From: Mesorhizobium sp. AR07
GTDB lineage: Bacteria; Pseudomonadota; Alphaproteobacteria; Rhizobiales; Rhizobiaceae
DNA: 64,000 nt
Direction: 5' to 3'
Assembly: GCF_024746815.1 (NCBI RefSeq)
Contig: NZ_CP080525.1
Coordinates: forward strand, 5,698,501 to 5,762,500
Under the pieces are notes generated by a model. It made no database searches. It saw only the letters and a list, made by a program, of their open reading frames with translations, and was not told the origin of the DNA. A program made the translations under genes and the position numbers. This document shows positions 16,642 to 47,000 of the stretch, piece after piece. Numbering within the stretch: the first letter of the stretch is position 1; the number at the start of each line of letters is the position of its first letter.

Positions 16642-16988
16642 CTTACTCTCCACCATCTTCCGCCAGAAAGAACGCTATCAGGTGGCGGTGAATTAGCTCG
16701 ATACAGGTCCCCGTCGCCGAAGGCGATGCGCACTCGTTCCCAGTGTGCCCACGCGGATTGTGCTTTCTGTTCTAGGCATATCAAGCAATGTGGGCGGAAA
16801 TCTTCAGTGCGGTCAATCGACACCAGGCCTGATTGTGTGTCCGCAAGGTGTCAGGGGCTGAACGGGGCGCCACCCGCTTAGTCCTTCCTGAACCCCAACT
16901 GAACACCGTCTTCAGCATCGGTTCGAATGGCATCTCCTAAAAAGAAGCCGTTCAACTCGCGGTCCCGTCCGCCAAAGGAGACGCTCTC
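16642..16988. other. Divergent intergenic region, curlin promoter side
   Basis: No gene was seen. The stretch separates the monooxygenase start from the first curlin gene and contains the CTGAAC repeats described separately, including a third CTGAAC at 16858. Confidence 0.5.
16888..16904 (+). promoter_or_regulatory. CTGAAC direct repeat upstream of curlin 1
   Basis: CTGAAC at 16888 and again at 16899 are 11 bases apart (one helical turn), 85 bases before the curlin ATG. The same arrangement precedes curlin 2. An 11-bp direct repeat is the site type of OmpR/PhoB-class response regulators; the regulator itself is not in the window. Confidence 0.55.
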
Positions 16989-17426
16989 ATGATCCGCATT
17001 TCTTTCATCGCAACCGCGCTCGCCGCTCTTGTCGGTATTACCGTCGCCGCCCCGGCCATGGCCAACGACGTGAGCATCGAGCAATATGGCTGGTCGAACT
17101 CGGCCGGCGGCGCCCAGAACGGCTTCAAGAACCGTATCCGGGTCTACCAGGACGGCCGCTTCAACACGGTGATCGGCCAGCAGCGCGGCCGCCACAACCT
17201 TTCGGCCATCGGCCAGGAAGGGGTCGGCAACTACGGCGCCACCTATCAGAACGGCAACCGCAATGTGGCCGGCGTCGCCCAGTTCGGCTCCAACCACACC
17301 ACCATCCTGACCCAGGACGGCAACGGCAACATCGCCGCCGGCGTGCAGGTGGGCCATGGCTGCGATGCCAATGTCAGCCAGGGTGGCAGCGGCAACGTCG
17401 CCGCTTTCGTCCAGGCCTGCCCGTAG
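16989..17426 (+). CDS. Curlin-repeat amyloid subunit 1
   Basis: The 145-residue protein has a signal peptide (cleaved near Ala-Met-Ala, residue 25) and then imperfect curlin repeats of the QxGxxN type, for example VYQDGRFNTVIGQQRGRHNL, IGQEGVGNYGATYQNGNRN and ILTQDGNGNIAAGVQ. These form the stacked beta-strands of curli amyloid fibres outside the cell. A C-terminal Cys pair (HGCDAN and VQACP) is unusual for CsgA. GGAG precedes the ATG. It is followed by a stem-loop and csgH. It may be CsgA- or CsgB-like. Confidence 0.85.
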   Translation: MIRISFIATALAALVGITVAAPAMANDVSIEQYGWSNSAGGAQNGFKNRIRVYQDGRFNTVIGQQRGRHNLSAIGQEGVGNYGATYQNGNRNVAGVAQFGSNHTTILTQDGNGNIAAGVQVGHGCDANVSQGGSGNVAAFVQACP

Positions 17427-17443
17427 ACAGCAGTGCCGGCCGG

Positions 17444-17470
17444 GTGGCCGCGGAACGATTTCGCGGCCAC
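17444..17470 (+). promoter_or_regulatory. Stem-loop between curlin 1 and csgH
   Basis: GTGGCCGCG (17444-17452) pairs perfectly with CGCGGCCAC (17462-17470). No T-run follows, and the next gene starts 27 bases on, so it probably stabilises the abundant curlin message or attenuates read-through into csgH. Confidence 0.5.
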
Positions 17471-17497
17471 GGCCACCGAACGCCAAGGAGACGAACC

Positions 17498-17899
17498 ATG
17501 CCCCGCATCGTCAAGCATTCCCGCTCCGTCATAACGGCACTCGCCCTGGTCTTAGTCTCGGCCGGCGCGCTGGCGACCATGGCCACCGCCGACCAGTCCG
17601 TCGAACCGGTGCGTTGCGAGATCCGCGCCGCGCCGGAAGGCGGCATGGTCTTGCTGGAGGCGCTCGCCCATGCCGACAGAAAGGTGAGCGGCACCTATTC
17701 CTTCCATGTCGAAAGCGCCGGCCGGTCCGGCGGCACCAATATCGAGCAGGGCGGCGCCTTCAGCGCCGCGCCCGGCAAGCCTGCGACGCTCGGCACCGTC
17801 ATGCTGGACGCAAAGGGCGTCGTCTACGACGCCAAGCTCGAGGTCACGGTCGATGGCAAGAGCATCGGCTGCGCCGAGCAGGTCGGCGGCGCGACCTGA
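17498..17899 (+). CDS. csgH: Curli assembly chaperone CsgH
   Basis: CsgH is the periplasmic alpha-proteobacterial curli factor that binds curlin subunits and blocks premature fibre formation. ATG 17498 follows AAGGAG. The 133-residue product has a signal peptide (about 32 residues) and then the CsgH beta-sandwich, beginning VRCEIRAAPEGGMVLLEALA and ending KSIGCAEQV, with two cysteines likely to pair. Location between two curlin genes fits. A terminator follows. Confidence 0.85.
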   Translation: MPRIVKHSRSVITALALVLVSAGALATMATADQSVEPVRCEIRAAPEGGMVLLEALAHADRKVSGTYSFHVESAGRSGGTNIEQGGAFSAAPGKPATLGTVMLDAKGVVYDAKLEVTVDGKSIGCAEQVGGAT

Positions 17900-17921
17900 T
17901 CGCATCGCTAGATTTACGAAC

Positions 17922-17949
17922 AGGGCGTCGGCGGTCGGCGCCCTTTTTA
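17922..17949 (+). terminator. Rho-independent terminator after csgH
   Basis: AGGGCG (17922-17927) pairs with CGCCCT (17939-17944), followed by TTTTT. Confidence 0.7.
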
Positions 17950-17975
17950 TGTGCGCCAGGCCGGGAGAAAAATGA

Positions 17976-17992
17976 CTGAACGACAGCTGAAC
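17976..17992 (+). promoter_or_regulatory. CTGAAC direct repeat upstream of curlin 2
   Basis: CTGAAC at 17976 and 17987 repeat with the same 11-base period as before curlin 1, 78 bases before the ATG. A reverse copy, GTTCAG, lies 22 bases further on at 18009. It sits just beyond the csgH terminator, so curlin 2 has its own promoter. Confidence 0.55.
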
Positions 17993-18069
17993 GAAGGATT
18001 CCGGCAGCGTTCAGCCACGAGATGAGAAGGTTGGCCATAGGCTGAGGCAGCCGGAAAATGGAGATCAAG

Positions 18070-18483
18070 ATGACCCGCAATATGTTCAAAACCCTTACCG
18101 CGGCTCTCGTTGCCGGCGGCATCGGCCAGGCGGCGCTGTCCGCACCGGCTTACGCGGGCGGCTGGGTTTCGGTGACATTTGCTCCTGACAACGCCCGCGA
18201 CGCCGGCGCCCTGGCGACTGGCCTGCGCGTCTATTCGCTGTATCGCGGCCTGCGCGGCGCCAGCATCCGCCAGGTGGGACACGGCAACGCCGCCGGCATC
18301 GGGCAAAACGGCGGCGGCAATCTGGGCATCATCCAGCAGGAGGGTAACGGCCATTCCGCCACCCTGCAGCAGAACGGCAATGACAACGCCTACGGCATTT
18401 TCCAGTTCGGCAGAAACACCGACGCCAACGTCGTGCAGACCGGCGATGGCGGCGGCGGCGCCACCTTCAGCTACGGTTGGTAG
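18070..18483 (+). CDS. Curlin-repeat amyloid subunit 2
   Basis: ATG 18070 follows GGAG at normal spacing. The 137-residue protein has a signal peptide to about Ala31 (PAYAGG), then repeats such as IRQVGHGNAAGIGQNGGGN, IIQQEGNGHSATLQQNGND and IFQFGRNTDANVVQTGDGG, the curlin QxGxxN pattern. There is no C-terminal Cys pair. It diverges from subunit 1 throughout, so the two may act as major subunit and nucleator. It has its own upstream repeat element. Confidence 0.82.
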   Translation: MTRNMFKTLTAALVAGGIGQAALSAPAYAGGWVSVTFAPDNARDAGALATGLRVYSLYRGLRGASIRQVGHGNAAGIGQNGGGNLGIIQQEGNGHSATLQQNGNDNAYGIFQFGRNTDANVVQTGDGGGGATFSYGW

Positions 18484-19242
18484 CAGGCGAAGACCAATCG
18501 AGACTCGGGCCCGGAGATCATCGTTGCGCGTCGCCAGCGGCTCGCTTGCCTGTGGCGGCTCAGCGCCGACCTCAAGGGGCCCCCTCGCTATCCAACTTGG
18601 AGCATGAAGGTGCACCTGTTGAAGCCCTCGGAATTGCTCGAACGGGGGTTATAGCTTTTGATGATGGCGCCGTTCTTCACCGACGCGAGCATGAAGACGA
18701 TGAAGCCGGAAGCCGATATGAAAAAGGCCTGGGCCGGCATGGCTAAGGCCGATCAGGACAAGATGATGAAGGAATGCAACGACGCGGCGATGAGCAAGCC
18801 TCACGCCCGCCGGAGTTGGTACCGGAGCGCACTACCACCTTTCCTTACATTCTTCAGGAGGGGTTCATTTTGAACCTTTTTGACCGTGAGCGATCTTTCG
18901 CTCCGAGCAGGACAGCCGTCAGCTTTTTGGGAGCCAACGTTGAAGTAAGCGAGTTCGTGATATTGTGTGGGTGTGGGCATTGTCGCTTCCGAGATTCGTC
19001 ATCCAGATCGATCAAGCATCGTGACCGCCATCAACATTCGAGGCGCTATTACACCCTCCGGGCTCACCATTATCGTTATTTATCAATGATTTAGTAGTAA
19101 TCATTGGCTCGGGTGGCCAAGTCAGGACTGACGAACCTCCGTGCATCTTATTGACTTTATCGACTTATGGCGGGCTCCGGAAGACGGACGATATCGATTT
19201 GCCGCACAAAAATGTGGCAAACTCGCAGGAATATTGCTCCTG
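18484..19242. other. Mostly empty stretch with one gene scrap
   Basis: At about 18661-18804 a reading frame gives FFTDASMKTMKPEADMKKAW and DQDKMMKECNDAAMSKPHA, resembling the mature part of a small rhizobial periplasmic protein but without signal peptide or proper end. It is probably a remnant. The rest shows no gene, RNA or repeat that I recognise. Confidence 0.35.
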
Positions 19243-44081: not shown

Positions 44082-47000
44082 TCAGAACTTGACGCCGAGA
44101 TTGGCCTTGAAGCTCTGGTCGATTGCCGCGCCGCCGAACTGGCTGGTGTAGGAGACCCCGAGCGTCGCGCTGGGCGTGAGGGTGAAGTCCAGTCCCGCTT
44201 CGACGATCGCGCTGTCCTTGGCGATCGGAACGCCGGCCACGGTGAAGGCGCCGCCGCCGGCGAAGGCGAGCGACGATAGCGGCGTGGTGTCACCGAAAGC
44301 GTGGCGCCAGCCAACCATGCCGCGCACCGTGGCGCTGATATCGCGCACTGTAAAGTCCGCGCCCGCCCTGAGACCCACGGTGGTGAAGGTCGTTTCGGTG
44401 GTCGAGCCGGCACTGGCCAGCGCTGCCCTGCCACCTTGCTCCGAAAAGCCGTCGGCCTTGACGTTGACATGGGCAAGTCCGCCGAACGGCTCGAGGGAAA
44501 CGCCGCCGATATTCAGGCCGTAGCCGAGTTCCCCGAAGACCTGTGCGGTGCCGGCATGGTATTTCGCCGCAAGGCTGTCGGAAAAGCCCGGGAAGACGAC
44601 GTCGCGGCTGGTCTCGATGTCATGCCAGCTGTAGGCGGCGCCGCCACGCAGGCTGAATACCCCCCACCGGCCGCCGCCGAACAGGCCGACATGGTAGCTT
44701 GAGCTGCTGCCCGAGGAAGCCCGGTCGGTTGCATCGAAGGAAGTTTGGCTGTAGCCGCCGATAACGCCAAGGCGCCAGTTGTCGCCGATGGGCGTATCGG
44801 CGCCAACGACGAAGCCACCGGTGCTGCGGCTGAATGTTGCCGCGTTGCCGTCGCTGTCGGTATCGCCCCAGGAGCCGTAGGCCTGGCTCCAGACGGCGAG
44901 ACGGTCGGTCGCGGCCTCGGCGAGCACAGGGCCGCCCGGACCGTAGGCCATCACCGGGACAGAAGTCGCGCCGGCCTCGCCGAAGGCCGCCCGGATACGG
45001 GCGTTGGCGGCGTCGGCCAGGAAGCGGCTGTCCTCGACCAGCATGCCGTTCACCGATGCATGGACCTCGCCCGACAGCGCGTCGAAGGCCTTGCGGGCAG
45101 TGTCCTCGTCGAGGCTGGTGACGGCGTTGTAGAGCGCGTTGCCGGTACCGAGCTGTTCGGCGCCGCCGGCGGCGGCGATCTGGTTTCGGGTGCGCCCGAC
45201 GTCGCCAAATGAAACATCGTTGCGGGCGAGCGAAAGGCTGATCGCATTGGCGGTGTAGGAAAGCGTCGGCGTCAGGAAGGCGAAATTGGAGGTCACCGAC
45301 GCAAACTGGCCGGCAATGCCCGAGGCCGCCGTCAAGATGGTGTATTGCGGTGTCGTTGCGTAGTCTCCTGTCGCCGCAAGCACCTGCACGGTGCCGCCGG
45401 AAAGCGTTACCTTGCCCGAGACGGCAAGCCTGTCCGACTTGCCGGTCGCATCGGCCTCGACCTGATAGATGGAGCCGGCGGCAAAGCTCGCATCGCCCGC
45501 GACATTGAGCGTGCCGATGGAGTTGCCGGGGGCGACCGTCGAGCCGCTGAGCGCCGTTACCTTGCCGACCGTGCCGGTGCCGCCAAGGCTTGCGCCCGAT
45601 TGCAGCGTGACGGCCGAATTGGCAAGCGAACCATTGACGGAAAGTCGCCCGGCGTTGACGGTGGTTTGGCCCGAAAGCAGGCTGGTGCCGGTGAGGTTGA
45701 GCCTGCCTGTGCCGGTCTTGGTGAAGGAGCCGGTGCCGTTGATGGCGTTGGCGAAAGTGGCGTCCACCGCCTGGTCGATGATGAGGGCGGCGTCGTCGAG
45801 GATGGCGCCGCTGCCGAAGCTCGATGCGGAACCGGCCAGCGTCCCCGCCGCAATCGTCGTGCCGCCAGCATAGCTATTGGCGCCGGTGAGCACGGTCTTG
45901 CCGGTTCCGATCTGCTTGAGCGAACCGCTGCCGGAGATCGCGCCGGTGAAGGTCAGCGTGTCGGAGCGGTTGAAGGCAAGCACGCCGCTATTGGCGACAT
46001 CGCCGACGATCGAACCTTGCCCGCCGCCATTGCCCAGTTGCAGCGTGCCTTGCGAGATTGTGGTGCCTTGGGCGTAAGTGCTGGTGCCGGTGAGGCTGAG
46101 CGTGCCTGTGCCGGTCTTGGTGAAGGAGCCGGTGCCGTTGATGGCGTTGGCGAAAGTGGCGTCCGTCGCCTGGTCGATAATGAGGGCGGCGTCGTCGAGG
46201 ATGGCGCCGCTGCCGAAGCTCGATGCGGAACCGGCCAGCGTCCCCGCCGCAATCGTCGTGCTGCCAGCATAGCTGTTGGCGCCGGTGAGCACGGTCTTGC
46301 CGGTTCCGATCTGCTTGAGCGAACCGCTGCCGGAGATCGCGCCGGTAAAGGTCAGCGTGTCGGAGCGGTTGAAGGCAAGCACGCCGCCATTGGCGACGTC
46401 GCCGACGATCGAGCCCTGCGCGCTGCCATTGCCCAGTTGCAGCGTGCCTTGCGAGATTGTGGTGCCTTGGGCGTAGGTGCTGGTGCCGGTGAGGCTGAGC
46501 GTACCCATGCCGGTCTTGGCGAAGGAGCCGGTGCCGTTGATGGCGTTGGCGAAAGTGGCGTCCGTCGCCTGGTCGATAATGAGGGCGGCGTCGTCGAGGA
46601 TGGCGCCGCTGCCGAAGCTCGATGCGGAACCGGCCAGCGTCCCCGCCGCAATCGTCGTGCCGCCAGCATAGCTATTGGCGCCGGTGAGCACGGTCTTGCC
46701 GGTTCCGATCTGCTTGAGCGAACCGCTGCCGGAGATCGCGCCGGTGAAGGTCAGCGTGTCGGAGCGGTTGAAGGCAAGCACGCCGCTATTGGCGACATCG
46801 CCGACGATCGAACCTTGCCCGCCGCCATTGCCCAGTTGCAGCGTGCCTTGCGAGATTGTGGTGCCTTGGGCGTAAGTGCTGGCGCCGGTCAGCGTCAGCG
46901 TCGCGGCGCCGGTCTTGGTCAGCTTGCCTTTGCCGGAGATCATGCCCGAAGCGGTGAGATCGGCGTCGGTGGCGAACGTACCGCCTGCCGTGCGCAGGTC

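Follow-up and report, generated by a model that had tools for sequence, protein, structure and literature searches.

The analysed window, a stretch of 64,000 nucleotides from Mesorhizobium sp. AR07, contains two curlin genes separated by csgH, and each curlin gene is preceded by the paired repeat CTGAAC-N5-CTGAAC. Features of the locus are listed in Table 1. A pattern scan placed the repeats at 16888-16904 and 17976-17992 with zero mismatches, exactly where the earlier note had put them, and the gaps given there also hold, since the first repeat ends 85 bases before the ATG at 16989 and the second 78 bases before the ATG at 18070. An alternative start at 18058 is possible for the second curlin ORF; in a copied cassette elsewhere in the genome (L019) the ATG equivalent to 18070 is kept and none occurs at the position of 18058. 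Elsewhere in the window, a 399-bp tandem repeat (3.1 copies, 95% matches) occupies 45681-46919.

Table 1. Genes and predicted promoter features of the curlin locus (positions are those of the window; ranks are from a feuN-site matrix)
Feature	Position	Strand	Sequence	Remarks
Curlin 1 distal FeuP-type box (predicted)	16888..16904	-	CTGAACCCCAACTGAAC	Minus strand GTTCAG-N5-GTTCAG; matrix rank 2/127,966
Curlin 1 proximal box (predicted, weaker)	16910..16926	+	CTTCAGCATCGGTTCGA	Fits conserved 11-bp-period array; matrix rank 438
-10-like hexamer	16938..16943	+	TAAAAA	11 bp past curlin 1 proximal box
Curlin gene 1, curlin repeats	16989..17426	+		PF07012 1.3e-17
csgH, chaperone of curli-like fibre formation	17498..17899	+		PF21112 5.6e-31; NF041112 6e-33
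Curlin 2 distal FeuP-type box (predicted)	17976..17992	-	CTGAACGACAGCTGAAC	Matrix rank 1/127,966
Curlin 2 proximal box (predicted)	17998..18014	+	ATTCCGGCAGCGTTCAG	Matrix rank 3/127,966; array conserved
-10-like hexamer, weak	18026..18031	+	GAAGGT	Only A2 and T6 kept; 11 bp past proximal box
Curlin gene 2	18070..18483	+		PF07012 8.1e-09

The CTGAAC repeats are not a product of chance. Among 150 windows simulated with a first-order Markov model of this one, a single exact pair turned up, an expectation of 0.0067 per window; two are present, both in curlin promoters. When up to three mismatches were allowed, 49 matches were found in the window against 44.6 expected, which is background, so that the exact form alone is informative. 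Over the 8.73-Mb genome 8 exact matches were counted, compared with 1 for a letter-reversed control; seven of the eight lie at the four csgH loci (two at each of three chromosomal curlin loci and one at a plasmid copy) and the eighth lies ahead of a BA14K-family gene. With one mismatch allowed the genome count was 39 against 20 for the reversed control. A third CTGAAC at 16858 was excluded from the element, being present in cassette L019 and absent from cassette L020.

Both CTGAAC pairs belong to a larger element of 39 bp, lying at 16888-16926 and 17976-18014, in which two pairs face each other with the core TGAA-N7-TGAA-N7-TTC-N8-TTC. Two more half-sites, located on the opposite strand, continue the 11-bp spacing in a constant way in the csgH loci of the genus. 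The paired repeats described by the earlier note are real, but they are only the distal half of an element whose proximal half it had missed. The CTGAAC pair is directed against transcription, and the pair beside the -10 box lies on the other strand and is weaker in consensus. Reversed, the CTGAAC pair reads GTTCAG-N5-GTTCAG, that is, TTCA-N7-TTCA. This core is exact in the distal boxes of both promoters of the window, and the proximal boxes keep TTC-N8-TTC with one core A replaced in each.

The curlin-csgH-curlin cassette (16837-18808 of the window, about 2 kb) occurs in four copies in the genome, the other three (L019, L020, L021) being 91-97% identical to it. The plasmid copy begins inside curlin gene 1, and it contains csgH and no curlin-repeat match. 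The cassettes are recent copies and conservation within the genome is inflated accordingly, for which reason conservation had to be shown in other genomes. The same high identity is what would be expected if the repeats were leftovers of recent duplication with no regulatory meaning. In 12 of 15 other genera, however, the half-sites are constant while the 5-bp spacers vary (best-scoring loci), and this reading is regarded as extremely improbable. No match to CsgG (PF03783) was found on any contig of the genome, despite its four csgH loci.

The earlier note had named absence of the repeats from orthologous promoters as what would count against its proposal; the array was found to be conserved in such promoters, both within the genus and in other genera. 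The genus set consisted of 33 loci (L015-L018 from the same genome and L023-L051), of which two incomplete loci were set aside. At no more than one mismatch in the 14 specified bases, the array was present before csgH in 30 of 31 loci and after csgH in all 31, the sole miss being the plasmid copy described above. A named set of 27 loci (L142-L168; Mesorhizobium, Rhizobium, and one Hyphomicrobiales metagenome-assembled genome) had the array before csgH in 26 and after csgH in 26; one of its members (L168) was scored as before csgH by position, although its array resembles the second-curlin type. Four incomplete loci (L025, L051, L172, L179) stand outside the counts made by position relative to csgH, and each has the array with at most one mismatch.

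Across the order, csgH was found in 53 of 397 genomes and 25 of 141 genera, the AR07 genome included, and the best-scoring 29 csgH loci from genomes other than AR07, representing 15 genera, were read. The array was present with at most one mismatch in 26 of these 29 loci (two incomplete ones included) and in 12 of the 15 genera, three genera being without it at that threshold, and none of eight control spacings was found in any of the same 29 loci. Counted by position among the 27 loci left when the two incomplete ones are set aside, the array lay before csgH in 24 and after it in 14, rising to 26 and 17 at two mismatches. In an 8.3-kb stretch of a Bosea plasmid, where csgH stands beside a CsgG/HfaB gene, the best match had three mismatches and no array was found.

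Species overlap between the named and genus sets makes the full collection of 89 loci partly redundant. Within it the exact array occurred 137 times, and 18 other spacings gave no exact occurrence. At one mismatch or fewer, the array scored 156 and five other spacings also scored (66, 50, and 1 each for the last three), with several more doing so at two mismatches; these scores arise because a one-base shift of TTC costs few mismatches. The curlin promoters used in the conservation, hexamer, and matrix tests were picked by array score, so that conservation of the 14 specified bases is built in; this does not apply to the remaining letters or to where the -10 hexamer lies.

Two exact arrays apiece were found in Rhizobium etli CFN 42 p42e, R. 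tropici CIAT 899, and Mesorhizobium sp. AR02, and one in Sinorhizobium chiapasense. R. leguminosarum 23B carries an IS630 transposase gene in the interval from csgH to the second curlin gene; the array of the first curlin gene has one mismatch, and an exact array adjoins the second. As the array stays with the second curlin gene despite the IS630 insertion, this comparison indicates that the second curlin gene has an array of its own.

TTCA-N7-TTCA was reported before 12 genes, 5 of them FeuP-dependent, in a start-site map of S. meliloti and was proposed there as the FeuP site (PMC3616915), a proposal that is itself computed. In S. meliloti Ak57 the motif stands ahead of the annotated feuN and of the annotated glucan exporter (ndvA-type) gene. 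The AR07 genome has a feuN-feuP-feuQ-like operon (L114) with the site GTTCATTTCACGTTCAG at L114:650-666 and a feuN-like ORF from 691. Its regulator shares 80.4% identity with S. meliloti FeuP, compared with 51% for the runner-up among the 30 of 42 Trans_reg_C loci in the genome that were compared; the FeuQ-like kinase is 51.8% identical to S. meliloti FeuQ, against 30.7% for the next, and the FeuN-like product shows 40% identity to FeuN over 94 residues. Upstream of feuP (within 650 bp) the motif was present in 23 of 27 genomes of the order, and a reversed control in none of the 27. The set grows to 31 feuP loci when AR07, S. meliloti, L204, and L207 are included, and of these 26 have the site and 5 do not; the feuP starts of L204 and L207 were missed by the pattern search and taken by fixed coordinate (L207 with the site, L204 without), and one of the counted sites (L225) is weak. 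Contrary to expectation, no TTCA-N7-TTCA was found in the 1.5 kb upstream of the AR07 ndvA homologue (L104, G000:C1:282661), unlike the S. meliloti gene, a result that bears on which genes make up the regulon of this Mesorhizobium and not on the box.

The same kind of site could be shared by FeuP with a paralogue or with another OmpR/PhoB-family protein that is the true binder. AR07 has such a pair (L130, G000:C1:4457929), a FeuP-like regulator with 51% identity to the FeuP of S. meliloti and a FeuQ-like kinase with 31% identity to its FeuQ, and a similar pair, SMc02366/SMc02367, has been described in S. meliloti (PMC5539429). However, no TTCA-N7-TTCA is present in the 3.2-kb L130 locus, nor is any found at one mismatch upstream of the paralogue, and its recognition-helix region differs from that of FeuP, in which DRDSNTIEVF is identical in the five FeuP sequences compared. 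FeuP itself is near-universal in the order, having been found in 44 of the 46 genomes drawn. A binder other than FeuP from this family is considered very unlikely.

The window was scored on both strands with a matrix built from 24 of 26 feuN sites (L207 and L225 left out), none of them from curlin promoters. The first three places were taken by the curlin 2 distal, curlin 1 distal, and curlin 2 proximal boxes, in that order; with a 26-site matrix these were unchanged and the curlin 1 proximal box came 531st. The training sites had been picked by TTCA-N7-TTCA, so that the matrix favours that core by construction; the published proposal of the FeuP site and the enrichment before feuP are separate supports. 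Among non-redundant promoters the distal box was in the top five of its locus in 52/52 curlin 1 and 44/44 curlin 2 cases, and the proximal box in 30/52 and 28/44, ranking first in only 0/52 and 1/44. The feuN training sites scored 22.6 on average, the curlin 1 and curlin 2 distal boxes 16.2 and 14.3, and the corresponding proximal boxes 5.8 and 8.6; the lower curlin scores suggest that curlin expression would need more active FeuP than feuN does.

When offsets of 4-23 from the end of the proximal box were compared, the match to TATAAT, taken as the predicted -10 element, peaked at offset 11 for curlin 1, curlin 2, feuN, and BA14K promoters. The curlin 1 mean at this offset was 3.73 of 6 (52 non-redundant promoters), with A at the second position in all; that of curlin 2 was 2.52 (44 non-redundant promoters), with A at the second and T at the sixth position in 98% each and T at the first in 7%. 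In the other two sets the peak was blunt: feuN scored 2.58 at offset 11 and 2.35 at offset 9 (n=26), and BA14K 3.76 and 3.53 (n=17). By analogy, this geometry appears to be the layout of activators that replace the -35 element, as described for PhoB (PMC3616915).

The one exact match in the genome away from csgH is a GTTCAG-N5-GTTCAG at L003:1501-1517, before the BA14K-family gene. At least one exact CTGAAC-N5-CTGAAC was present in 144 of 146 genomes of the genus, and 28 of 31 pattern loci (30 and the AR07 locus) have a site of the type GTTCAG-CCNCY-GTTCAG, which scored first in its locus in 28/28. In 27/27 other genomes the site is followed, after about 70 to 94 bases, by the start of a homologue of the AR07 BA14K protein, with identities of 53 to 92%. 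Among the one-mismatch loci of AR07 (22 of 31 matches viewed), L082, L089, L090, and L093 precede secreted-looking proteins, with a good offset-11 hexamer at L089 (TATAAG) and L093 (TATTCC); the majority of the remaining loci seem to be chance matches. As a separate observation, CTGAAC-N5-CTGAAC or a near form precedes a secreted-looking protein beginning MQAN in two genomes of the genus (L073, L082), and the spacer CGAAC recurs in others.

Binding of the repeats by CenR, an OmpR-family envelope regulator of alphaproteobacteria, was the first candidate explanation, because the motif reported for it, TGA-N8-TGA with an 11-bp period (PMC9275681), is satisfied by CTGAAC-N5-CTGAAC. A BA14K transcript also falls in cenR and essRS deletions of Brucella ovis (PMC10746171), and the single non-curlin exact site of AR07 precedes a BA14K gene. 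CenR was set back when a matrix of 31 published R. sphaeroides sites failed to single out the curlin boxes, whose median ranks per locus were 32.5 to 322 with this matrix and 1 to 5 with the feuN matrix; it also leaves the sites ahead of feuNPQ unexplained, and is judged quite unlikely. ChvI was set aside by its cited motif alone, N-GCC-N8-GCC (PMC9731502).

The alphaproteobacterial SOS box of LexA, GAAC-N7-GAAC, is likewise contained in CTGAAC-N5-CTGAAC, and a site of this kind lies upstream of the AR07 lexA gene (L139:1426). That site reads GGAACA-N5-GGAACA and not CTGAAC, lexA being the gene examined, and GAAC/GTTC is not kept in every half-site of the array, conserved members such as TGAAT, CTTCAG, CTTCCG, and ATTCCG breaking it. 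The feuN sites begin with A in 12/24, in each half. LexA is disfavoured on these grounds, and its being the regulator is highly improbable.

The explanation preferred here is that FeuP, a response regulator of the OmpR family, controls both curlin promoters through a double FeuP box at each, and we consider this likely. The earlier note had read the period and distance of the repeats as those of an OmpR/PhoB-type regulator directly co-regulating the two curlin genes; the comparative evidence from the genus and from the best-scoring loci of other genera supports a regulator of that family at both promoters and allows it to be named, provisionally, as FeuP. The two curlin genes would have separate promoters, both provided with the doubled box. 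FeuP is the response regulator of the FeuPQ envelope two-component system; once phosphorylated, it would occupy the consensus distal box and, presumably cooperatively, the weaker proximal box. The latter is oriented the other way and lies one helical turn along, which would place four DNA-binding domains of FeuP on a single face of the DNA. Since the proximal box lies 11 bp before the -10-like hexamer, at the place of the -35 element as PhoB boxes do, the proximal pair would contact RNA polymerase, and FeuP would recruit the polymerase and activate both curlin genes together. Activation, as opposed to repression, is assumed from the role of FeuP in S. meliloti, and the signal may resemble the one described in that species, where FeuPQ has been characterised as osmolarity-sensing (PMC11103875).

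Whether the proposal extends further is evenly balanced in our estimation. In the extended form, FeuPQ would be an order-wide master switch of curli in the Hyphomicrobiales replacing the missing CsgD, and would act through a new architecture in which two tandem FeuP dimers meet head-on over 39 bp, the strong distal box, in inverted orientation, helps to load the weak activator box proximal to the gene, and the FeuP-phosphate threshold of the curlin genes is higher than that of feuN. No link of FeuP to curlin was found in the open-licence PMC passages covered, whose co-mentions concerned root-hair curling or E. coli curli apart from FeuP. For csgAB of Rhizobium mesoamericanum, levels lower by a factor of 2.6 to 3 were reported in root exudate of Mimosa (PMC5789663), with no mention of FeuP in the part of that paper covered.

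Known systems resemble parts of this arrangement. E. coli CsgD exerts at csgBAC the master control of curlin genes that is proposed here for FeuP; FeuP belongs to the OmpR family and CsgD to the LuxR family. PhoB boxes of E. coli and rhizobia resemble the curlin boxes in being direct repeats with an 11-bp period; their half-site, CTGTCAT, is different, and we know of none that includes a facing inverted pair. They stand in for the -35 element (PMC3616915), a place that the curlin proximal box appears to take as well. The candidate FeuP box of S. meliloti, Motif 3 of the same study, has the TTCA-N7-TTCA core and 11-bp period of the curlin boxes, and the S. meliloti feuN and ndvA-type genes, like the curlin genes, have a -10-like hexamer 11 bp downstream of the box. 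The curlin promoters differ in that the box is doubled and its distal copy is inverted and stronger than the proximal one, and the part of that text covered does not list curlin genes among the targets (PMC3616915). The CenR site of R. sphaeroides shares TGA-N8-TGA, an OmpR-family regulator, and envelope genes with the curlin boxes and differs from them in its flanking letters (PMC9275681).

In a 2012 survey csgD was reported to be absent from Alphaproteobacteria, and many alphaproteobacterial curlin genes were found without csgD and other csg genes, their regulation and assembly being left open (PMC3521004). Control by FeuP, if true, would explain how curli are switched on in rhizobia that have no usual curli switch, and the array of FeuP type conserved before both curlin genes points to one candidate regulator. 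The facing double box would, if this is correct, also offer a clean system for cooperative binding by OmpR-family proteins. In R. leguminosarum, mutation of FeuPQ impairs both growth in the rhizosphere and the colonisation of roots, and in S. meliloti the FeuPQ regulon is expressed more strongly in response to the plant peptide NCR247 (PMC11103875, PMC12714254). Given this role in root colonisation and this response to NCR247, amyloid production may be tied to plant-facing signals.
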